This document shows, piece after piece, positions 5,849-42,638 of a DNA stretch of 64,000 bases (positions are counted from its first letter, which is position 1; each line of letters starts with the position of its first letter). The notes under the pieces are model-generated. The model did no database searches. It saw only the letters and a list, made by a program, of their open reading frames with translations, and was not told the origin of the DNA. The DNA comes from an uncultured Spirochaetales bacterium. GTDB taxonomy: Bacteria; Spirochaetota; Spirochaetia; Sphaerochaetales; Sphaerochaetaceae. The stretch lies in the NCBI GenBank assembly GCA_944388965.1, contig CALXKL010000002.1, positions 62,001 through 126,000 on the forward strand, read 5' to 3'. Both the position numbers and the translations under genes were made by a program.

Positions 5849-6766
5849 ATGGGAAGATTCGCCAGGGCCTTGTCGACGACGCTCATACTCGCATGCATCT
5901 GCCAGAGCGCTCTGGCCGACTCCGTCTTCTCCGACTACGACTTCACGTTCTACGAGACCGTCTCCGAGTCGCTGGCGATCATGGACAGCTCCACAATAGG
6001 CTTCGACTACACCGGATTCGGCTTCGTGGGAGGCGGAAACACCCATGGCCTGTTCGTGCGCTTCGGCCTCCAGATGCCCTACTCGTCGCTCGCGAACCTC
6101 TTCGTCCGCCGGGACGCTCCGGGTCAGGACGCCTCCGGCGGGACCACGACCCCTGAGACGGGAGGCGGAGGACAGGATGCAGATCCGGGTAGCACGGCTC
6201 CTCCGACAGGGTCCACGCAGGACACGCCGGCCCAGGGCGGCGACATCGAGCTGGTCACGGGATCGTCGTCGCAGGAGAGTCTCAAGAGCGAATACAGGCT
6301 CACCTTCATCCTCGGCCCCGCATTGAGACATGTGTTCACCCCCTACCTCGACCTGTATGCAGGCATAGGTCCGAAGCTTGAGGAGTACATCACCGTCGAC
6401 TCGGACAGGCTATCCACAGCCAGGGTGACCACCTATGACACGGTGCTCGCCCTCGACTTCGACATCGGAGTCAAGTTCAACCTTGGCGACAACACATCAT
6501 GCCGCATAGGCGTGTACTCGACATACGAGCTGCTGAGCTACACGTACTCCACCACCGACGATGCGGATGGAAGACGGATGACGAGCACCTCAGACATCCA
6601 TCTGAACGCAATCGCCACCGGAGAGTCGAGAATCCCCCTGTCCGCAATCGGCTACATATCCATGGGCACGACGTTCTCGAGCTCCATGAGGACAAGAATA
6701 TACCGCTACGAGACCACCTCGCCCGAAATCGGCCAGGGGGAGAGCGTCATCATCGGCCAGGAGTGA
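5849..6766 (+). CDS. Exported outer-membrane beta-barrel-like protein
   Basis: The 305-residue protein has a signal peptide (MGRFARALSTTLILACICQSALA, cleavage expected before DSVFSD). The mature part alternates short amphipathic strands with glycines and aromatic residues, as in spirochaete outer-membrane beta-barrel proteins. A long low-complexity Gly/Thr/Pro/Asp loop (about residues 90-130) looks like a surface-exposed insert. The frame is open upstream to 5591, but that part overlaps the tRNA and its terminator, so the ATG at 5849 is chosen; it agrees with the signal peptide and the promoter. No named family is recognised. Confidence 0.7.
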   Translation: MGRFARALSTTLILACICQSALADSVFSDYDFTFYETVSESLAIMDSSTIGFDYTGFGFVGGGNTHGLFVRFGLQMPYSSLANLFVRRDAPGQDASGGTTTPETGGGGQDADPGSTAPPTGSTQDTPAQGGDIELVTGSSSQESLKSEYRLTFILGPALRHVFTPYLDLYAGIGPKLEEYITVDSDRLSTARVTTYDTVLALDFDIGVKFNLGDNTSCRIGVYSTYELLSYTYSTTDDADGRRMTSTSDIHLNAIATGESRIPLSAIGYISMGTTFSSSMRTRIYRYETTSPEIGQGESVIIGQE

Positions 6767-6829
6767 GCCGCTTGCCAGGTGCATGGACATAAACGATGAA
6801 GAATCGCTCCCTGTGTGCACACTTGACAT

Positions 6830-6858
6830 TTGTCTTTCCTTCTTCTTTGCCTTACAAT
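6830..6858 (+). promoter_or_regulatory. Candidate promoter for the small gene at 6894
   Basis: TTGTCT (6830-6835), 17 bases, TACAAT (6853-6858). The leader would be about 29 bases with AAGGAGGAG before the ATG. A perfect TTGACA at 6823-6828 is also present but too far from TACAAT. Confidence 0.5.
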
Positions 6859-6893
6859 TCCAGACAGGAGAAAGTCTTATCAAGGAGGAGAAC

Positions 6894-7181
6894 ATGGCCG
6901 AAACCATGACTAACGAGGAGGTCTACGACTTCATCGGTGAACTTGCGATTGCATTGTATTCGAAGAAGATCCGCATCTCGCTGGGTGCGCTGAGGGTCAT
7001 TCTCGCGGACAAGGGCCGCGACTACAATAACAACAGAGGTATGGCCACAGGTGTCAGCGCGGCATACAGGAGGTGGAAGGACAAGGACCCCGTCGTCTAC
7101 CACGCGATCGCCTACACCTACACCGACAAGGACGGCAACCTCGCCTGGGACAAGGGAAGCGGAGAGGTTCCGACCCGCTGA
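6894..7181 (+). CDS. Small hypothetical protein, 95 aa
   Basis: A soluble protein beginning MAETMTNEEVYDFIGELA. The start has an excellent AAGGAGGAG ribosome site; the frame is open upstream to 6783 but that part overlaps the promoter. It contains a basic middle (SKKIRISLGALRVILADKG) and an aromatic C-terminal half (AAYRRWKDKDPVVYHAIAY). No family is recognised. The strong translation signals and a following stem-loop at 7191 suggest a well-expressed, separately transcribed gene. Confidence 0.75.
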   Translation: MAETMTNEEVYDFIGELAIALYSKKIRISLGALRVILADKGRDYNNNRGMATGVSAAYRRWKDKDPVVYHAIAYTYTDKDGNLAWDKGSGEVPTR

Positions 7182-7190
7182 GATGCATGA

Positions 7191-7214
7191 TGCAGGGCCG
7201 ATGCCGGCCCTGCA
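7191..7214 (+). terminator. Perfect GC-rich stem-loop after the small gene
   Basis: TGCAGGGCCG and CGGCCCTGCA form a ten-base-pair stem with loop ATGC, ten bases after the stop codon. There is no T run, so it may instead stabilise the 3' end or be a weak terminator between the genes at 6894 and 7242. Confidence 0.45.
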
Positions 7215-7241
7215 CTGCGCTTCGACGGACAGGAGGTCGAA

Positions 7242-7457
7242 ATGTCGAATGAACATGTCACGGCAGGACTCGTCATCCTACTGATCGCTCTGGGAATCTT
7301 CCTGCTGCTGAGGGCCTTGATGTGCTGGTACTGGAAGATCGGACGGAGAATCGAGCTGATGGAGGAGCACAACGCCCTGCTGGAAAGACAGCTCAAGGTG
7401 CTTGAGGCGATCAGGGACAAGGGCTCAGGGGTTGAACCGCATCGAGACGGTGAATGA
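7242..7457 (+). CDS. Small single-pass membrane protein, 71 aa
   Basis: One hydrophobic helix (VTAGLVILLIALGIFLLLRA, residues 6-25) is followed by a tryptophan/arginine boundary and a charged, probably coiled-coil segment (RRIELMEEHNALLERQLKVL). CAGGAGG lies at good spacing before the ATG. It resembles small inner-membrane anchored proteins of unknown role; no family name is assigned. Its last 33 bases overlap the 3' end of the convergent beta-barrel gene. Confidence 0.6.
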   Translation: MSNEHVTAGLVILLIALGIFLLLRALMCWYWKIGRRIELMEEHNALLERQLKVLEAIRDKGSGVEPHRDGE

Positions 7458-8447
7458 CGAGGGGCGCGAGTCGTCCCCTTTGTAGTACTCCATGGGAAGA
7501 GTGTACTCGAAGCCGATGAACCAGCGTCCGAACTCGATGCCAAGGCTCATCAGCTGGTCGTTGCGTATCGCCTTCATGTAGTTCTCACGCGCGTTCCTGT
7601 AGCTCACCATGGCAATCTCGAACGAGAGGTTCGTGTCGGGCAGCAGCTGCAGGCAGATGTTCAGACCACCCATCAGGTAGCTGTCGGTGGACGACGTGAT
7701 GTCTCCGGCCTGCAGGAGCAGCGTCGGGCGCACCAGGCGCAGCTCCCCGTCCCTGGTGTAGCGCGGAAGATAAACCGAAAGCCCGACGGAGAGGGAGTCG
7801 GTCAGCCGGGATGGGGTGAACATGACCTCCCCATCCTGAGTATAGAGCAGCCTGTCCAGATACACGCCGATTGTGAAGTGGTCCTCGTCGTACCACATCA
7901 GGCCGGCTCCGACCTGGAAGTACTCGCTCCCCGGATTCTCGTAGAACTGCGAGAAGAACATGTTCGTCGCGAAGTCGAGCATCGAGTCCACAGAGCGGCC
8001 GGAACGTATCATGGAGTTGCCGCCCTGCAGCCGTGCCGCGAACGAGAAGGGGCCGAAACCGTATGCAAGATCCATCTGGAAGTACATTCTGAAGAGCATG
8101 TCGTAGACGGGCACCTGCTCCTGCAGCCGGTCCAGTCCATAACCGACACCGAGGGTGAACATCGCGTTCCTTCCGCCGAAGGAGAGCGTCAGCGAGCTCT
8201 CGCTGTCCTGGAAGAAGCCGAGCCTGTCGTCATACAGCGCGTGATCCGCCTCGTCGCCATAGCCCGTGGCCAGCATGAAGGCCCCGTCGCCCGAGCTTCT
8301 GAAAGGCAGCGCGGCTGGATTCGAGAAGCTGTTGACATAGCGTCCGGCACGTGCGACCGACATGCCTGACGAGGGCATGCGGATCGAGCAGAACACGGGT
8401 GCGCATATGAAAAGGAGTGCGACCAGCACGGTAAGTGGCTTCTTCAC
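7425..8447 (-). CDS. Exported beta-barrel-like outer-membrane protein
   Basis: Begins with a signal peptide (KKPLTVLVALLFICAPVFCS) and continues with repeated amphipathic strands rich in Gly, Tyr, Phe and Asp, ending SFTVSMRFNP. This fits the outer-membrane proteins of spirochaetes, though a named family is not recognised. Two GTG starts are possible, at 8456 and 8447. A TATAGT box at 8455-8460 overlaps the first and lies exactly seven bases before the second, so the inner GTG is chosen. It is divergent from murE. Confidence 0.7.
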   Translation of the reverse strand: MKKPLTVLVALLFICAPVFCSIRMPSSGMSVARAGRYVNSFSNPAALPFRSSGDGAFMLATGYGDEADHALYDDRLGFFQDSESSLTLSFGGRNAMFTLGVGYGLDRLQEQVPVYDMLFRMYFQMDLAYGFGPFSFAARLQGGNSMIRSGRSVDSMLDFATNMFFSQFYENPGSEYFQVGAGLMWYDEDHFTIGVYLDRLLYTQDGEVMFTPSRLTDSLSVGLSVYLPRYTRDGELRLVRPTLLLQAGDITSSTDSYLMGGLNICLQLLPDTNLSFEIAMVSYRNARENYMKAIRNDQLMSLGIEFGRWFIGFEYTLPMEYYKGDDSRPSSFTVSMRFNP

Positions 8448-8518
8448 ACAGCACACTATAGCACAGCGGGACGCATGTGAGGTAGCACCACAACACCGTT
8501 GAGGTGTATCATCATCTT

Positions 8519-9958
8519 ATGCTGACAAGCCGGCTGGCCCAGCATCTGGGCGGGACGCTCCTTCTAGGGAGCGACGATGACATCGTGACACTGTGCCATG
8601 ACTCCAGGGCATGCGCTCCCGGATGCGCCTATTTCGCCTTCAAGGGGATCCACTTCGACGGAGAGGACTTCATCGGAGAGGCGATAGCGCGCGGCGCAAG
8701 CCTGGTCGTGTGCTCCACAAGAAACCCTGATCTGGAGTCCTCCGCCTCGTTCATCATCCTCGCCGATGGAGACGTGAGGCATGCCTATGCCGTTGCCTCT
8801 GACGCACTGTTTTCCCATCCAAGCGGAAGGATATCGCTCATCGGAGTCACCGGCACCGACGGCAAGACCTCGACATGCCACTACATCCATCAGCTACTCA
8901 GGAAAAGGGGGAAGCGGTGCGGTCTTCTGTCCACGACGAGCGTCGACGAAGGGGACGGCATGATGCCCTCCCCTTATGCGAACACGACACCGGAGGCCTT
9001 CGATGTCCAGAGGACTATCGCGAAGGCGGCGGACGGAGGCGCAGGACACTTCGTGCTGGAATGCTCGAGCCATGCACTCGACAGACGCTACGACCGGCTT
9101 GCAGGCTGCATCTTCAGCTCATCCTGCTTCACGCGGATCACAAGCGAGCACCTCGAGTTCCACGGCACCTGGGACGACTACGTCGACTCGAAGCTCAACC
9201 TTGCCCGCCGCACGAGGGGACCTGTCTTCGTCTATGATGACAACCCCGTGCTTGAACGGCTGAAGACCATCTGCCCCCACTCGCTTGTCGTGCTCACCCG
9301 TCCAGAGGTGGTGGACAGGGACGGTGACGGCCTTGATTTCGTCCATGAGGGTCACAGGTACCACTTGCCGTTCTTCCCGGACTTTGCGCTTGAGAACGCC
9401 TGGATGGCGGCCCTGCTGGTCTCCACTCTCACCCATACGCCTCCGGCTCTGGTGCTCTGTGACCTGGCCAATCTGGTCAACCCGCCTGGACGGCAGGAGA
9501 TGATGTCGATCGCCGGGCGATTGGTCGTCATCGACTTCGCCCACACTCCGGACGCCTTCGACCGCCTGATGACATCGCTGCGTCTCGTGCATCCGTCGGG
9601 CTCGTTCATCGCCCTCTTCGGCGCATCCGGAAACAGGGACAGGAGCAAGAGACGCCTCATGGGAGATGTCGCGGCCAGGCATTGCTCCACGGTCATACTG
9701 ACAGAGGACGACCCCAGGCAGGAGGACGTGATGGACATCTGCAACGACATCGCCGACGGCATCGAGCCTGGGCGCTGCCGGCTCCGGATATGTCCACAGC
9801 GCAGCAAGGCCGTCGAGGAGGCGGTCCGCCTGTCAAGATCCGGCGATGTGATACTTCTTCTCGGCGTCGGGCCGCAGAAGGCGCTGGACCACTACACCTA
9901 TCATATGCCGTGGAACGAGAGGCAGGCGGTGCTGGACGCCTTCAAGGAGGTCCTCTGA
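8519..9958 (+). CDS. murE: UDP-N-acetylmuramoyl-tripeptide synthetase (MurE family)
   Basis: ATP-dependent cytoplasmic ligase adding the third amino acid to the peptidoglycan precursor UDP-MurNAc-L-Ala-D-Glu. The 479 residues carry the Mur P-loop GVTGTDGKTSTCHY, the central ECSSHAL box and FGASGNRDRSKR. The substrate motif is EDDPRQED: DDPR rather than the DNPR of meso-DAP enzymes. Because spirochaetes may use ornithine, and Thermotoga MurE has a similar DDPR, the diamino acid should not be assumed to be DAP. A GTG at 8504 is in frame, but TATCAT (8507-8512) ends six bases before the ATG at 8519. It is translationally coupled to ddl. Confidence 0.9.
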   Translation: MLTSRLAQHLGGTLLLGSDDDIVTLCHDSRACAPGCAYFAFKGIHFDGEDFIGEAIARGASLVVCSTRNPDLESSASFIILADGDVRHAYAVASDALFSHPSGRISLIGVTGTDGKTSTCHYIHQLLRKRGKRCGLLSTTSVDEGDGMMPSPYANTTPEAFDVQRTIAKAADGGAGHFVLECSSHALDRRYDRLAGCIFSSSCFTRITSEHLEFHGTWDDYVDSKLNLARRTRGPVFVYDDNPVLERLKTICPHSLVVLTRPEVVDRDGDGLDFVHEGHRYHLPFFPDFALENAWMAALLVSTLTHTPPALVLCDLANLVNPPGRQEMMSIAGRLVVIDFAHTPDAFDRLMTSLRLVHPSGSFIALFGASGNRDRSKRRLMGDVAARHCSTVILTEDDPRQEDVMDICNDIADGIEPGRCRLRICPQRSKAVEEAVRLSRSGDVILLLGVGPQKALDHYTYHMPWNERQAVLDAFKEVL

Positions 9959-35335: not shown

Positions 35336-36619
35336 TCAACCTCCGAAATAGGAGAACAGGAAGGACATGAGGCTGCCCTTCTCTTCCTTCAGCGCCAATG
35401 CACTCTCCAGATCGAGAGTGTGCATCTCCTTTGCGATCGACGCCACCTGTTCGAGACTGGAGCGGGCGAAGCCCTCGTCATCCAGCACCAGGGCGATCTC
35501 GTGGGACAGGCCCATCGAGCGGTAGTTGATATTGCTCGAGCCGATGACCGTGTAGCGCCTGTCGACGACGCACAGCTTCTGGTGCAGCAATGACAGCCCC
35601 GTCTCCTCTCCTGCGTACTCGATGTTCACGTCGAAGCCGGCCTCGACGAGGTTGTGGTAGTCGTAGAAGAGCGCCCCCTGCACGTATTCGCGCGAATCGA
35701 TCGGCAGATATATCTTCACCTCGACGCCGCGCTCCAGAGCCGCCTCGAGGCACTGGTACATGTTGTCGTCGAAGAAGGCAAGATACGGAAGCATGACTAT
35801 CTCCTCCTTTGCAGAGGAGAACAGGGCGGCGTACATGTCGGCCATGGACACGTCGCTTCCCGGCCCCTGGTTGAACAGGTATGCGTCAATCGAGCCGTGC
35901 GAGAGGCTCTTTCCCGTGGCGAAGTCGTCCCTGGACACCTTCTCCACGCTGGACTCGTTCCAGATGGTGACGAACTCGTCGACAAGGGCATCCGCCAGGG
36001 CCGGGGAGTCGAAGACGTACATGCTGTCACGCTGCAGGTCGATGTCGTCGGCCCCCAGCGAGATGTAGTTCATGTTCATGCCGCCCAGAGTGCACCAGCG
36101 TCCGTCCACGACGACGATCTTCCTGTGTTCGCGCACTAGAAGCGTGCCGGGCTGGAGTATGCTCATGGCTGAAAGCGGATTGTATTCGATCATGTGCACC
36201 CCGGCGTCCCTGAGGAAGTACAGAGGGAACATGTGGTCCGCACTGGCCGTCATGTCGTAGCTCGACACGGCGTCGATGATCATGTAGACGTCCACCCCGC
36301 TTTCCGCCTTGGCCGCGATCGCGTCGTACAGCGGCTCGAGCCCGTGGCATGAGCTTCCGAGGAACGTGGTGATGATCATGTAGTCCTGTGCGCCCTCGAC
36401 AAGCTCCATGAAGCGCTCCAGATAGAGGGAGGCGTCGAAGTACATCTCCGGGTACGGCACCTCGACATGCACACCGCCTCCTGCAAGCAGCTTCTCATGT
36501 GCCGGCAGGTCTGCATTGGCAAGCAACTGCGTGTCGACGAAGGGCTTCGTCATGCCGCACGACGAGAGCATCAGACATGACAGCAGGAGCAACACGATTG
36601 TCGTCGTTCTGTTTCTCAT
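35336..36619 (-). CDS. Phospholipase D-family lipoprotein
   Basis: The N-terminus MRNRTTTIVLLLLSCLMLSSC is a lipoprotein signal (lipobox LSSC), so the enzyme is anchored outside the cytoplasm. Two HKD motifs are intact: HRKIVVVDG followed by GGMNMN, and HQKLCVVDR followed by GSSNIN. Two-HKD proteins of this type include cardiolipin synthases, phospholipases and nucleases; the lipoprotein anchor and absence of N-terminal membrane helices argue against a classical cardiolipin synthase. It overlaps the upstream fusion gene by four bases. Confidence 0.85.
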   Translation of the reverse strand: MRNRTTTIVLLLLSCLMLSSCGMTKPFVDTQLLANADLPAHEKLLAGGGVHVEVPYPEMYFDASLYLERFMELVEGAQDYMIITTFLGSSCHGLEPLYDAIAAKAESGVDVYMIIDAVSSYDMTASADHMFPLYFLRDAGVHMIEYNPLSAMSILQPGTLLVREHRKIVVVDGRWCTLGGMNMNYISLGADDIDLQRDSMYVFDSPALADALVDEFVTIWNESSVEKVSRDDFATGKSLSHGSIDAYLFNQGPGSDVSMADMYAALFSSAKEEIVMLPYLAFFDDNMYQCLEAALERGVEVKIYLPIDSREYVQGALFYDYHNLVEAGFDVNIEYAGEETGLSLLHQKLCVVDRRYTVIGSSNINYRSMGLSHEIALVLDDEGFARSSLEQVASIAKEMHTLDLESALALKEEKGSLMSFLFSYFGG

Positions 36620-37767
36620 TCCTTCCTCTGGCTCGGGAATATGAAGGGCTTCGGAAGAAGCTCCGAGAAGACGTATGTGTGCACGTCGCCCTTCAGGGAA
36701 GAGAGTATAACAGGCGTATCGGGAGCTGTAAACTCCGCCAGGACCTGCAGACACATGGCGCACGGCGGAGCCGGCGGGTCGTCGTCCGACACGACCACCA
36801 TGGCATCGATGCCTATCGTACCCTCCTCGGCGATGGCATGGAGAAGCGCGTTGCGCTCGGCGCAGACGGTCGCCCCGAAGGACGAGTTCTCCACATTGCA
36901 TCCCGTGTAGATCCGTCCAGTGGCGGCTGAGCGCACGCAGGCGCCGACCTTGAAGTCCGAATAAGGGGTGTATGCATGCTCGCGGGTCCGCTTCGCCGCC
37001 TCGATCATCTCCTGTATGTCCGCTACCGGCGCATCCGGCCTCCTGACGCGGATCATGTTCGCTCCGAAGAGCCTCGTCTCATCGCCCTGCCGGGCCAGAA
37101 TGTCCACGGTCTGTTCCATTGTGGATCCGCCAAGAAGTATCCCTATGTCCTCCGATGCCGCACAGGCCCCCCATGAGCACAGCGTGGAGACATCCACGGT
37201 GCCTGCGATGCCCAGCACCTTCATGCCGGCATCCAGTCCTGCCATGACACCAGCCCTGCTGTCCTCGACGACGATGCAGGAGGCCGGATCGCTGCCCAGC
37301 CTCGCGGCCGCCTTGCGGTAGATCTCGCCGTCCGGCTTGTTGTTCACGATCTCCTCGCCGCTGAGGACGAGGTCGAAGTCGTCCTCGTCAAGGCCGATCA
37401 CCCTGATGTTGGCCAGCACCTTCCAGTGCGGGGCGGAGGAGCACACCGCGACCTTGAAGCCCAACGCCCTCAGGTGTCTGACGAGGGCACAGGAAAGCGC
37501 CTTGGCGCAATCGTCCAGGGACGCCGCCATCAGCGATGGATAGTGCTCCTTGAAGTACAGCGAGGCCTCGGCCAGGTCCACGTCCATGCCGCGCTCTCCG
37601 GCCGGTCCGGTGAAGAAGACCTCCTCGCCCGCTCCAAGATACGGTTCGACGTCCTTGCGTGTCAGCCTGACGCCCTTGAGGAGGAACCAGTCCATCAGTA
37701 TGCGGATGGAGACGGGTTCGCTGTCGATCAGCACGCCGTCCATGTCGAAGAGGAAGGTGTCCGTCAT
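36616..37767 (-). CDS. HAD phosphatase - cytidine deaminase fusion protein
   Basis: One uninterrupted 383-residue frame with two enzymes. Residues 1-220: HAD hydrolase of the beta-phosphoglucomutase subgroup (FDMDGVLIDSEP at 7-18, VAVCSSAP at 107-114, NNKPDGE at 142-148, VVEDSRAG at 166-173). Residues 245-360: cytidine deaminase with AYTPYSDFKVGACV, zinc/proton-shuttle motif VCAERNAL (C302, E304) and PPCAMC (C336, C339). I infer that the HAD half dephosphorylates CMP or dCMP and hands cytidine to the deaminase; this is untested. The frame is open 55 codons further but inside the dihydropyrimidinase-like gene. It overlaps both neighbours by four bases. Confidence 0.88.
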   Translation of the reverse strand: MTDTFLFDMDGVLIDSEPVSIRILMDWFLLKGVRLTRKDVEPYLGAGEEVFFTGPAGERGMDVDLAEASLYFKEHYPSLMAASLDDCAKALSCALVRHLRALGFKVAVCSSAPHWKVLANIRVIGLDEDDFDLVLSGEEIVNNKPDGEIYRKAAARLGSDPASCIVVEDSRAGVMAGLDAGMKVLGIAGTVDVSTLCSWGACAASEDIGILLGGSTMEQTVDILARQGDETRLFGANMIRVRRPDAPVADIQEMIEAAKRTREHAYTPYSDFKVGACVRSAATGRIYTGCNVENSSFGATVCAERNALLHAIAEEGTIGIDAMVVVSDDDPPAPPCAMCLQVLAEFTAPDTPVILSSLKGDVHTYVFSELLPKPFIFPSQRKE

Positions 37768-39131
37768 GTCGCCTTGATGAACCGTCCGTCCCCGGGGATG
37801 CCCAGGTACATTCCGCTTCCCATGATGAGCCTTCCCCTGAGGTAGGTCATCACCGCCTTTCCGATGACGTTCATCCCCTCGTACGGGGTGTAGCCGCATT
37901 CCGAATGCGTGTTCTCGCTCGAGAGCGTCCATGAGACGTCGGGATTGAATATGACGATGTCGGCATCGCTTCCCTCTCTGAGCACGCCCTTGTGGGGATA
38001 CAGGCCGAAGTACTTCGCAGGACCTGTGGAGAGGACGTTGACCATCTCGTTGAGCGTCAGCAGCGCACCGTTGGCCACGAGGTTGTGGATCAACGGCAGC
38101 ATCTCCTCGCTTCCAGGGATGCCCGGATAAATCGTGCGCGTGTCATGGCTCTCGAGCTTCTGGGCACGGGTGAACGAACAGTGGTCCGTGGCGACGACCT
38201 GGATCTCGCCGTTGCACAGCGCCTCCTGTAACGCCAGGTTGTCCTTCTCCTCCCTCAGCGGAGGCGTCATGACGTACAGCGGGCCGTCGGGCCCCTCGAG
38301 CTTCGAGCGGTCGAGGAAGAGATAGTGCGGCGTCGTCTCGACGATGACCTCGAGCCCCCTGTCGCGCAGACTTCTGACAGTCTCCAGCCCCTCGGCGCTG
38401 GACAGGTGGACGACATACAGCGGGATGCCCACCTCGAGCGCAAGGGTGCCCATGTGCTCGATCGCCAGGGCCTCGGCCCTTGCCGGTCGGAGCACTGGAT
38501 GGTCCTTGGGCCGATAGTCGCCATGGTATGCCGATGCGACCTGCTGGAGATATTCGTCGTCCTCGCAGTGCACGCAGACCATGAGGCCCAGGTCGCGGCA
38601 CATGTGGAAGATGCGTCTCAGCTCCTCCCTGTTCTCGATCAGGTAGCCCACGTCCTTGTATGTGGTGAAGAGCTTTATGGCCCTGCATCCGGCCTTCTTC
38701 ACCTGGGCAAGCTCCTCCTCCAGGCCCGGCCTGAAGGCGTACACGCCCTGGTGGATGGCGAAGTCGATGGCCATCTCCTCGCCCATCGCGTCCACTCTGG
38801 AGCGGAAGCATGAGGGAAGCGAGACGTGGTCGTCGTCCGCGAAGTCGACGACTGTCGTCACACCTCCGAAGGCGGCGGCCTTGCTGCCTTCCTTGAAGCT
38901 GTCGGCGGTCACCGTACCACGAGAGACCAGATGATAATGGGTGTGCGCATCGATGATGCCGGGCAGGACCAGCAGTCCATCGGCATGGACCAGCGTGACG
39001 TTGTCGTGGATCGATGCGGGATCTATGTGCGGAGAGATCCTGACGATCTTCGAGCCGCGCACAAGTATATCCGCGCGTCTCTTCCATTCCGTGTCTATGA
39101 GAAGTCCGTTTTGAATGAGAATACAGCTCAT
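37764..39131 (-). CDS. Dihydropyrimidinase/hydantoinase-like amidohydrolase
   Basis: Cyclic amidohydrolase of 455 residues. The metal site is intact: DAHTHYHL (HxH), AIKLFTTYK (carboxylated lysine), VHLSSAEG (His), ETTPHYL and ATDHCSF (Asp). It opens the ring of dihydropyrimidines, hydantoins or allantoin-like ureides; which one cannot be read from sequence. It is first in a five-gene operon with the HAD-deaminase fusion, and a cytidine/uracil connection favours a pyrimidine substrate. The ATG lies seven bases after TATCAT with no ribosome site. Confidence 0.88.
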   Translation of the reverse strand: MSCILIQNGLLIDTEWKRRADILVRGSKIVRISPHIDPASIHDNVTLVHADGLLVLPGIIDAHTHYHLVSRGTVTADSFKEGSKAAAFGGVTTVVDFADDDHVSLPSCFRSRVDAMGEEMAIDFAIHQGVYAFRPGLEEELAQVKKAGCRAIKLFTTYKDVGYLIENREELRRIFHMCRDLGLMVCVHCEDDEYLQQVASAYHGDYRPKDHPVLRPARAEALAIEHMGTLALEVGIPLYVVHLSSAEGLETVRSLRDRGLEVIVETTPHYLFLDRSKLEGPDGPLYVMTPPLREEKDNLALQEALCNGEIQVVATDHCSFTRAQKLESHDTRTIYPGIPGSEEMLPLIHNLVANGALLTLNEMVNVLSTGPAKYFGLYPHKGVLREGSDADIVIFNPDVSWTLSSENTHSECGYTPYEGMNVIGKAVMTYLRGRLIMGSGMYLGIPGDGRFIKAT

Positions 39132-39896: not shown

Positions 39897-41360
39897 ATGC
39901 TGATCAATCTCGAGCGACATGAAGACATCATCGAAAAGAACGTGGAGCGCTGCCGTCAGAAGGGCATAACGCTTCCGACCTTCCGCGAGATGATGGATCC
40001 GCGCCTCATCGGCGATGATGTGAAGAAGCGCCTGAAGAACGTCGGGCTTTGGGATGTGGACCCTGTCAACCTCTACAGAATCACGTGGCACAACGAGCCG
40101 AAGGAGAAAGGCGGACTGTACGGAGGGGTCAACTTCATCGAGATCCCGCGCACGATCACCGGGACGAAGGCCCGAATCCTGGCCCTGGTCGGCAAGTGGT
40201 TCCCCTGCGGAGTGCACAAGGTCGGCGCCACGTACGCCTGTCTCGCCCCCGCCCTGGTCACAGGCAACTTCGATGCATCCAGCCAGCAGGCCGTCTGGCC
40301 CAGCACGGGAAACTACTGCCGTGGAGGCGCCTACAACAGCGCGCTTCTGGGCTGCGACAGCATAGCGATTCTGCCGGAGGACATGTCGCAGGAGCGCTTC
40401 AACTGGCTCAAGAGCGTGGCCGGGGAGGTCATCGCCACACCCGGATGCGAGTCCAACGTCAAGGAGATCTTCGACAAGTGCCATGAGCTGGACGCCACAC
40501 GCGGCAGCCACATCGTCATCTTCAACCAGTTCGAGCAGTTCGAGAACTATCTGTGGCACTACGAGGTCACCGGAAGGGCGATTCTCGAAGTACTGGAGAA
40601 TCTCGGCATCAAGGCCGACAACGTGCGCGCCTACGCCTCCAGCACCGGAAGCGGCGGCACGCTTGCCGCAGGCGACCACCTGAAGGACGTCTATCCAGGC
40701 ATCAGGATCGGAGCCGGAGAGGCGCTGCAGTGCCCCACACTGCTGCGAAACGGATTCGGAGCCCACAGGATCGAGGGCATCGGCGACAAGCACGTGCCGT
40801 GGATCCACAACGTGAAGAACACCGACATGGTCCTCTCGATCGACGACCAGGACTGCATGGACATCTACAGGCTGTTCAACGAGCCCGCCGGAAAGGACTA
40901 CCTGTCATCGATCGGCGTGAAGGACGAGGACATCGGAAACCTCGAACTGTTCGGCATCTCGGGAATCGGCAATCTGCTGAGCGCCATCAAGATGGCGAAG
41001 TTCTACGAGATGGACGAGGACGACGTCGTCTTCACGATCCTCACCGACAGCAGCTCGATGTACACCAGCCGCCTTGCGGAGCTCACACAGCAGCAGGGTC
41101 CCTTCAACGCCATGGAGGCGGCGAAGGTCCATGCGGCGAGTCTGCTGCATCAGGGCATCGACAACGCCCTGGAGCTGGGCTACTACGACAGGCTTCGCAT
41201 ACACAACCTGAAGTACTACACCTGGGTCGAGCAGCAGGGCAAGACCTACGAGGAGCTCAACAGGCAGTGGTACGACAGGAACTACTGGAAGGAGCTGCCA
41301 AAGCTCACGGGACGCATCGACGAGCTCATCGACGAGTTCAACGCGCGCATAGCGAAGTAG
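39897..41360 (+). CDS. PLP-dependent fold-type II enzyme (cysteine synthase/TrpB-like), 487 aa
   Basis: The PLP lysine is probably K108 in WFPCGVHKVGATYACLA, comparable to the GAHK of tryptophan synthase beta, and STGSGGTLAAGDHLKD is the phosphate loop. Beyond the catalytic core there are about 140 extra C-terminal residues (KMAKFYEMDEDDVVFTILTD to the end). Expected chemistry is beta-elimination or beta-replacement on an amino acid. It precedes a second fold-II enzyme and the NifU-like/GGGtGRT pair on the same strand, so a joint amino-acid or ureide catabolic role is possible. Substrate unknown. Confidence 0.8.
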   Translation: MLINLERHEDIIEKNVERCRQKGITLPTFREMMDPRLIGDDVKKRLKNVGLWDVDPVNLYRITWHNEPKEKGGLYGGVNFIEIPRTITGTKARILALVGKWFPCGVHKVGATYACLAPALVTGNFDASSQQAVWPSTGNYCRGGAYNSALLGCDSIAILPEDMSQERFNWLKSVAGEVIATPGCESNVKEIFDKCHELDATRGSHIVIFNQFEQFENYLWHYEVTGRAILEVLENLGIKADNVRAYASSTGSGGTLAAGDHLKDVYPGIRIGAGEALQCPTLLRNGFGAHRIEGIGDKHVPWIHNVKNTDMVLSIDDQDCMDIYRLFNEPAGKDYLSSIGVKDEDIGNLELFGISGIGNLLSAIKMAKFYEMDEDDVVFTILTDSSSMYTSRLAELTQQQGPFNAMEAAKVHAASLLHQGIDNALELGYYDRLRIHNLKYYTWVEQQGKTYEELNRQWYDRNYWKELPKLTGRIDELIDEFNARIAK

Positions 41361-41380
41361 GACAAGGATTGGACCGGATA

Positions 41381-41410
41381 CCGACAGGAAGGCCGAACGA
41401 CCTTCCTGTC
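41381..41410 (+). terminator. Stem-loop between the two PLP genes
   Basis: GACAGGAAGG and CCTTCCTGTC form a perfect ten-base-pair stem followed by GTCTTG, about seven bases before the AAAGGAGA ribosome site of the next gene. It is either a leaky terminator or an mRNA-processing stem that tunes the second gene. Confidence 0.5.
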
Positions 41411-41432
41411 GTCTTGAAAGGAGACACCAGTG

Positions 41433-42638
41433 ATGAGATTCGCATACAAGTGCCATGACTGCGGTCATGAATTCGAGAGCGACGGAATCGTCTACCTGTG
41501 CCCGAAGTGCGGCGGCAGCACGGCACCAGGCGAGTTCAGGCGCGGCATCCTATCCGTCATCTACGACGATGACGAGCTGGGAAGGCTCAGAGACAGGAGG
41601 GATCTGTCGGTCGACGACTTCCTGCCCTACCCGATAGCATCCCCCGGCACCTTCCCCTGCGGCCCCACTGCGCTCGTGAAGCCGGGACGCATCAGGAAGG
41701 AGACCGGCGTGGACGTCACGCTGAAGATGGACAGCCAGCTGCTGTCCGGATCCTTCAAGGACCGTGCAAGCCTGCTTGTCGCAAGCCAGGCGATCCACCA
41801 TGGCCAGACGAGGATCGCCCTGGCCTCGACGGGAAACGCCGGTGCCGCCATGAGCGCCATCGGAGCGGCCTATGGACTGGACATAATCCTCTTCGTCCCC
41901 GCGACCGCTCCCGTGAACAAGCTGATGCAGAGCGTCCTGTACGGTGCGCATGTCGTGCCGGTCAGGGGGACCTACGACGACGCCTTCGCCCTGTCCATCG
42001 CCTACACGCAGAGCAAGGGGGGAGTCAACAGGAACACCGCGTACAACCCGATGACCATCGAGGGCAAGAAGGCCGCCTCCATAGAGCTCTTTCTGCAGAT
42101 GGGACGCGAGGTCCCGGACATCATCTATGTGCCCACAGGCGACGGCTGCATACTTGGAGGCATCTACAAAGGGTTCTATGACTTGCTGCACGCCGGCCTC
42201 ACCGAGGCCCTGCCCAGAATCGTCTGCTGCCAGAGCGACAGGTCGGATGCGATTGCAGGCGCATTCGAGACGGGCGTCTATGCCGACGTCAAGGCGACGA
42301 CACTCGCCGACAGCATCTCCGTCTCATCCCCTGCCAACGGCCGCATGGCCGTGCGTGCCATCAGGGAAAGCGGAGGTCATGTGGTCAGGGTCTCCGACGA
42401 CGAGATACTCCAGGCACAGAGGCTGTTGTGCTCCCAGGCCGGGCTCTTCGTGGAGCCTGCATCGGCATGCGCCTACGCCGCGTTCCTCAAGGACTGCGGC
42501 AGCATCGGCGGTGGAGAGAAGGCCACGGTCCTGCTCACCGGAACGGGTTTCAAGGACATGGCCGTCTTCCAGGGCAAGGTCGCACTGCCCGAGGCGATCG
42601 ACAACAGCGTAGAGGCCGTGCTGGCCCTTCCCTTCTAG
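41433..42638 (+). CDS. Threonine synthase-like PLP enzyme with N-terminal zinc ribbon
   Basis: The 401 residues begin with a zinc ribbon (CHDCGHEF, CPKCGG), then a fold-II PLP domain with lysine in LLSGSFKDRASLLVAS and phosphate loop LASTGNAGAAMSA. This layout is that of the archaeal/plant type threonine synthases, unlike the canonical ThrC at 297-1559. Since that ThrC is already coupled to thrA, this paralogue probably serves another reaction in the local cluster, such as an ammonia-lyase; this is inference. A GTG one codon earlier is possible; the ATG at 41433 fits the ribosome site. Confidence 0.8.
   Translation: MRFAYKCHDCGHEFESDGIVYLCPKCGGSTAPGEFRRGILSVIYDDDELGRLRDRRDLSVDDFLPYPIASPGTFPCGPTALVKPGRIRKETGVDVTLKMDSQLLSGSFKDRASLLVASQAIHHGQTRIALASTGNAGAAMSAIGAAYGLDIILFVPATAPVNKLMQSVLYGAHVVPVRGTYDDAFALSIAYTQSKGGVNRNTAYNPMTIEGKKAASIELFLQMGREVPDIIYVPTGDGCILGGIYKGFYDLLHAGLTEALPRIVCCQSDRSDAIAGAFETGVYADVKATTLADSISVSSPANGRMAVRAIRESGGHVVRVSDDEILQAQRLLCSQAGLFVEPASACAYAAFLKDCGSIGGGEKATVLLTGTGFKDMAVFQGKVALPEAIDNSVEAVLALPF

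Follow-up and report, generated by a model that had tools for sequence, protein, structure and literature searches.

Other HAD phosphatases are known to be fused to a metabolic partner, most clearly in MtlD of Acinetobacter (PMC6291793). In MtlD, an N-terminal HAD phosphatase is joined to the enzyme of a neighboring step, and the fusion is limited to one clade. The known bacterial HAD 5'-nucleotidases are broad in specificity (PMC8475336). The fusion described here resembles MtlD in its architecture and in its likely restriction to a clade, and MtlD appeared in the list of our fold search. It differs from MtlD in the partner and the pathway; the homology is confined to the HAD part, and here the phosphatase would catalyze the first of the two steps. 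The closest relatives of its two halves are the HAD-IA/beta-PGM-like C1-cap phosphatases (HxpB/YniC, TM1254, AlnB, CbbY, HDHD1A) and the tetrameric cytidine deaminases (Cdd; B. subtilis 1jtk, 2d30). The sequence-only reading knew of no characterized enzyme with both, and none was found in the PDB sequence and fold searches or in the literature searched; a search of open-licence papers found no published account of a HAD–cytidine deaminase fusion.

The locus lies in the window, which is the whole stretch of 64,000 nucleotides analyzed from an uncultured Spirochaetales bacterium. The features discussed below are:

36616..37767, minus strand: HAD phosphatase–cytidine deaminase fusion gene (383 aa, P0001), a single open frame whose homologues share its ATG
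37087..37767, minus strand: HAD-IA phosphatase domain with C1 cap, residues 1-227 (PF13419/PF00702; AlphaFold2 model)
37048..37077, minus strand: linker beta-hairpin, residues 231-240 (region LFGANMI), from the predicted model, with the (Y/F)G motif
36643..37023, minus strand: cytidine deaminase domain, residues 249-375 (TIGR01354; 2d30 fold match; C302, E304, C336, C339)
36619..36642, minus strand: conserved C-terminal tail beyond the deaminase, residues 376-383 (IFPSQRKE)
37764..39131, minus strand: dihydropyrimidinase/D-hydantoinase-like amidohydrolase gene, directly upstream of the fusion (TIGR02033; synteny)
35336..36619, minus strand: phospholipase-D-like lipoprotein gene, downstream (PF13091; synteny; ATGA overlap with the fusion)

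The sequence-only reading had placed the fusion at 36616-37767. These coordinates are exact, and the strand is minus; the plus strand of the interval is interrupted by stops. A longer frame from 37932 was rejected, since its extra codons are borrowed within the upstream gene and 37767 is the ATG from which the homologues start. Two complete enzymes had been predicted in the frame, and all of the HAD motifs and the zinc and catalytic residues of the deaminase were indeed found. A sequencing or assembly error, which had been named as one way in which the prediction could fail, is excluded by the same single frame in dozens of independent genomes. The frame is also present in contigs titled Bullifex porci NM-380-WT-3C1 and Sphaerochaeta halotolerans 4-11 and in several one-contig genomes. 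With named strains and one-contig assemblies among the carriers of the same frame, the probability that two genes were merged by an artefact is negligible. The HAD–cytidine deaminase fusion in Sphaerochaetaceae is a genuine, conserved single polypeptide.

The fusion occurs in 27 of the 37 sampled genomes of the Sphaerochaetaceae, the GTDB family of the window, isolates included, with 36-92% identity for full-length matches. These counts derive from open-frame lengths and match positions in a whole-protein search of 61 relatives, where 12 of 16 genomes of the genus and 15 further family members have a single two-domain frame. In a phylum-wide draw of 393 genomes, full-length matches were confined to the Sphaerochaetaceae. 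Among the best 80 loci from 84,980 species genomes (a pattern-based table), fusions came solely from Sphaerochaetaceae-type organisms, titled Sphaerochaeta, Bullifex porci, Ca. Ornithospirochaeta and uncultured Spirochaetales; the remaining loci, for example from Bdellovibrionota, Bacillota and Myxococcota, show the deaminase match alone. None of the best matches listed for 398 sampled genomes from the phylum of L118 (titled Clostridia) spans both HAD and deaminase, and no match in plasmids or phages reached 80% of the query. Outside the Sphaerochaetaceae, the searches could miss an independent fusion if its HAD were distant, and the fusion is likely restricted to this clade. The Sphaerochaetaceae that carry it are spirochaetes of guts and sediments. 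Frames of 305-332 aa in another phylum (G781:C1:574799, G648:C11:26635, G733:C1:2156628, G786:C10:116912 and G526:C3:233613) also contain cytidine deaminase matches; these may represent further deaminase fusions or no more than long open frames. In close pairs of the Sphaerochaetaceae fusion, the HAD half has a dN/dS of 0.08-0.15, the deaminase one of 0.01-0.05 and the linker one of no more than 0.09. The values for the two halves indicate that both are maintained by purifying selection, and the HAD half evolves faster than its partners.

Judged from residues and fold, the assignment of the C-terminal half as a cytidine deaminase is strong. It matches PF00383 over residues 251-351 with 64.5 bits (cut-off 25) and belongs to the tetrameric cytidine deaminases of NCBIfam (TIGR01354, 129.5 bits, cut-off 113.65); taken together, the family matches extend over residues 251-375. 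Residues 249-380 match the B. anthracis, B. subtilis and Burkholderia enzymes with an rmsd of 1.2-1.6 Å over 124-130 residues. For 2d30 (B. anthracis Cdd-2), Z is 23.1 and the rmsd is 1.2 over 124 residues, with 44% identity. The CAE/PCxxC zinc site, the NxE substrate motif and the Arg after CAE are common to tetrameric Cdd and the fusion. The zinc and catalytic residues C302, E304, C336 and C339 are invariant in 27 aligned fusions; together with N291 and E293, they are present in 41 of 41 rows of the larger alignment, and R305, the Arg after CAE, in 40 of 41. What the fusion adds to the known enzyme is the N-terminal HAD domain, the linker hairpin and the conserved C-terminal tail. The C-terminal half very probably deaminates cytidine/deoxycytidine and makes the protein tetrameric.

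The N-terminal half is a HAD-IA phosphatase domain. It matches PF00702 over residues 3-181 (79 bits, cut-off 26.4) and PF13419 over residues 6-186 (77 bits, cut-off 23.8), scores 62.3 with TIGR01509 (cut-off 29.4) and has the four catalytic motifs (D8/D10, S111, K144 and E168-D169). The HAD family matches as a whole cover residues 3-187. D8, D10, S111, K144 and D169 are invariant in the 27 aligned fusions and E168 is nearly so; in the 41-row alignment, 38 of the 39 rows that cover the motif I aspartates retain them. The C1 helical cap between motifs I and II is seen as helices at 17-83 of the model and in a Z of 23 to beta-PGM over residues 1-228. Over the same residues, the Z values to AlnB, beta-PGM, CbbY and YniC (21.8-24.0) are too close to rank, with AlnB (24.0) and beta-PGM (23.4) tied. 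The HAD half shares with these C1-cap phosphatases the fold (Z about 22-24), the four motifs and a DSEP-type loop past motif I. It differs from them in its low identity (20-25%), in scoring below every equivalog cut-off, in the lack of the mutase histidine and in its fusion to a deaminase. The structural neighbors from the fold search include AlnB and also human HDHD1A, a pseudouridine 5'-phosphatase; the PDB sequence match to pseudouridine phosphatase is only 2.6e-5.

The best specific model for the HAD half is that of the hexitol phosphatase HxpB (NF008087), which gives 71.1 bits against a cut-off of 191. None of the nucleotidase models reaches its cut-off for this half; the pyrimidine 5'-nucleotidase model TIGR01993 gives 29 bits against 142.9, which does not exclude the activity. 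A beta-phosphoglucomutase is disfavored by 58.8 bits with TIGR01990 (cut-off 189.4) and by the absence of the mutase His20. Position 20, which holds the catalytic His20 in the L. lactis enzyme, is occupied by Ser, Ile, Met or Ala wherever a row has a residue at this place, and by histidine in no fusion. Two free-standing HAD relatives (L169:3954-4817 and L177:3968-4612) adjoin FGGY-like sugar kinases and zinc alcohol dehydrogenases, with transketolase or SDR genes in the same neighborhoods; these genes were identified by reading their sequences. The two HADs are likely sugar or polyol phosphate phosphatases. In the HAD tree, the free-standing clade is well supported (100/99) and the HADs linked to a cytidine deaminase lie apart, with G335 as the one exception.

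A dihydropyrimidinase-like gene upstream in the operon had been noted from the sequence alone and is confirmed at 37764-39131. TIGR02033 is by far its best model, at 383.8 bits slightly below the cut-off of 393.25, and synteny shows the gene to be a conserved companion of the fusion. The stop codon of this gene and the start codon of the fusion overlap as ATGA. Downstream, the phospholipase-D-like gene, with its start codon at 36619, is syntenic in most relatives and is probably functionally unrelated to the fusion. Since ATGA overlaps lie on both sides, the translation of the fusion is probably coupled to that of its neighbors. Divergent from the operon, at 39897-42638 on the plus strand, are two adjacent genes for PLP-dependent enzymes (487 aa, cysteine-synthase-like, and 402 aa, threonine-synthase-like), which are also nearby in several congeners.

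Of the three PF00383 proteins encoded in the genome, the fusion alone is a cytidine deaminase. Besides it there are a ComEB-like dCMP deaminase homologue and one deaminase without assignment. With the separate ComEB-like protein, dCMP is less likely to need the fusion. A 201-aa fragment matches uridine phosphorylase with 277 bits (cut-off 280), and uridine from the deaminase could thus go to uracil and ribose-1-phosphate. Also encoded in the genome are a purine nucleoside phosphorylase, a UPRT-like protein and an operon for de novo pyrimidine synthesis. The UPRT-like domain (L157:120-1259, minus strand, C5) lies in a 380-aa frame with extra N-terminal sequence and scores below the uracil phosphoribosyltransferase cut-offs. 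The sampled members of the genus lack pyrimidine-nucleoside phosphorylase (PyNP, TIGR02644) and PsuG, and no TIGR01879 carbamoylase in the genus exceeds the cut-off. PreA is absent from the genus, so the dihydropyrimidinase neighbor cannot complete the classical uracil-reduction pathway. A PreA-type uracil reduction in the genome of the window was rejected because the one DHO_dh match of this type is a fusion of PyrD with a PyrK-like part. This 591-aa frame (L134:616-2391, minus strand, on contig C2 outside the window) has PyrD at the N terminus, followed by the PyrK-like electron-transfer part, and lies between pyrF/pyrE-like and pyrC-like genes.

Homologous HAD and CDA genes occur as separate frames in other Spirochaetia, behind a dihydropyrimidinase in two of three cases. 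In L088, the dihydropyrimidinase (6021-7364) is followed by the HAD (8001-8681) and the CDA (8662-9069), and the HAD and CDA frames overlap by 20 bases. L084/G052 has the same gene order, and in G038 the HAD and the deaminase are adjacent without a dihydropyrimidinase. These separate, overlapping or adjacent genes look like the pre-fusion state. The linkage of dihydropyrimidinase and deaminase is older still than the HAD–CDA adjacency, as it is present without the HAD in L086 and G039. The core fusion deaminases form one well-supported clade (98/90), and the deaminases of L088, L084/G052 and G038 are close to it. This closeness and the HAD–CDA adjacency suggest that the fusion most likely arose in an ancestor of the Sphaerochaetaceae when two neighboring genes entered one frame. 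The HAD tree does not reject one common origin for the fused HADs (p-AU 0.32). The deaminase tree does reject a single clade of all fused deaminases (p-AU 0.027); the probable cause is a set of five divergent fusions on long branches (L021, L022, L025, L032 and L047). The dihydropyrimidinase is directly upstream in four of these, and L032 ends at a contig end.

Either half may be given up. In L083:8016-8465 (Ca. Aphodenecus pullistercoris), the HAD is gone and the deaminase begins with the linker motif LYGAN and nests within the fusion clade, which points to loss of the HAD after fusion. A 137-aa deaminase stands alone behind the dihydropyrimidinase in G004 and G007. L085, from the same deaminase clade, also has the deaminase alone, with its upstream side cut off; these three may be older separate forms instead of cases of HAD loss. 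In L168:3300-4256 (G019:C5, same family), a reduced HAD without DxD, Lys and motif IV precedes an intact deaminase; its alignment to the HAD is still significant (score 89, against 50 for the best of 500 shuffles). It is a pseudo-phosphatase domain kept in frame. The reverse is seen in L176:3393-4400, minus strand (G349:C134, same family), where the HAD is intact and the deaminase has lost CAE, PCxxC and all zinc ligands. The deaminase remnant can still be aligned (score 52, best shuffle 41), and the gene still lies between the dihydropyrimidinase and phospholipase-D-like genes. Because some lines have a missing or decayed HAD and one has a decayed deaminase, the two activities can be separated, and neither requires the other for its retention. 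The clade thus keeps separate, overlapping and fused genes and the loss of either half, a compact natural series on why enzymes fuse and when a fusion is abandoned.

We tentatively propose, at slightly less than an even chance, that the fusion is a bifunctional enzyme of pyrimidine salvage in which the N-terminal half dephosphorylates a pyrimidine nucleoside 5'-monophosphate, CMP first, and that the protein runs from CMP through cytidine to uridine. The HAD half would convert CMP to cytidine, the deaminase half would convert cytidine to uridine, and uridine phosphorylase would yield uracil and ribose-1-phosphate. The conservation of the HAD–CDA adjacency before the fusion argues for a shared pathway. 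The fold neighbors AlnB and HDHD1A and the broad specificity of bacterial HAD 5'-nucleotidases also speak for this route. As a Rosetta stone, the fusion links to cytidine metabolism a HAD phosphatase that could not otherwise be assigned, and it offers a clean test of HAD specificity; the CMP route, if true, explains how these spirochaetes recycle RNA-derived CMP. Against it count the nucleotidase models, all below cut-off, the first place of HxpB and the sugar or polyol neighbors of the free-standing HADs, as does the loss or decay of the HAD (L083, G019) or the decay of the deaminase (G349) while the other half stays. The faster evolution of the HAD half and the lack of PreA in the genus also count against it. 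The conserved neighborhood favors a pyrimidine substrate and the family background favors a sugar phosphate, and a sugar-phosphate phosphatase is a close rival. It is possible, at a probability well short of even, that the HAD half acts on sugar or polyol phosphates, as a phosphatase of the HxpB/YniC, TM1254 or pentose-phosphate type, and was fused as a gene neighbor. The two reactions would then not be consecutive, or the HAD would remove ribose phosphates from later nucleoside breakdown. The best specific models and PDB sequence matches are sugar phosphatases (HxpB, TM1254 (3kbb), YniC (1te2) and CbbY), and the free-standing relatives and the independent loss of either half fit this reading. 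However, the HAD–CDA adjacency is older than the fusion and is retained in other families, the substrate of a HAD is not fixed by fold or family, and the separation of the CDA-linked HADs from the free-standing clade suggests that specificity may have changed.

It is unlikely that the protein serves in the house-cleaning of RNA-derived or modified pyrimidine nucleotides. The HAD would act on pseudouridine-5'-phosphate, dihydro-UMP or methylated CMP, the deaminase on cytidine and N4-modified cytidines, and the dihydropyrimidinase would open dihydrouracil from tRNA dihydrouridine. Prokaryotic tetrameric CDAs do accept N4-substituted cytidines (PMC9897663). The HAD half folds like AlnB and HDHD1A, but this match is unspecific, as the Z values of AlnB, beta-PGM and CbbY lie close together (22.5-24.0). 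In favor of this role, the dihydropyrimidinase lies directly upstream although the genus has no PreA; against it, neither the pseudouridine glycosidase PsuG nor a TIGR01879 carbamoylase above cut-off was found in the genus. The remnant in G019, fused to an intact deaminase, could suggest that the HAD half now serves the deaminase mainly in a structural or regulatory role. We consider this very improbable for the fusion at large, given the retention of the motif I aspartates and the purifying selection on the HAD.

Returning to the CMP route, the fusion probably gives chiefly equal dosage and proximity. The linker is more than a simple tether, since residues 231-240 are predicted to form an ordered hairpin. 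It spans 33-43 residues in the long-linker fusions, of which 30 of 30 have the (Y/F)G motif, and 13-23 residues in eleven fusions without it, measured over the same alignment columns. A linker of 13-43 residues and the loss of either half argue against an obligatory channel, and a true channel between the halves, which the sequence-only reading had suggested for CMP or dCMP to uridine, is not supported by the present evidence. It is rather unlikely that the protein is a tetrameric nucleotidase-deaminase in which four HAD sites hand cytidine to a central deaminase core, so that CMP becomes uridine in one particle. Such a particle would be an architecture without a characterized counterpart found. 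Its evolution would have been stepwise, starting from overlapping genes, with dismantling from either end in descendants. The AlphaFold2 model of the fusion has a mean pLDDT of 91.9, with each domain confident, and a pTM of 0.65. F377 and P378 of the tail are conserved in 33 of 41 relatives. Both the (Y/F)G motif of the linker hairpin and the IFPxxR tail are kept in most Sphaerochaetaceae fusions.
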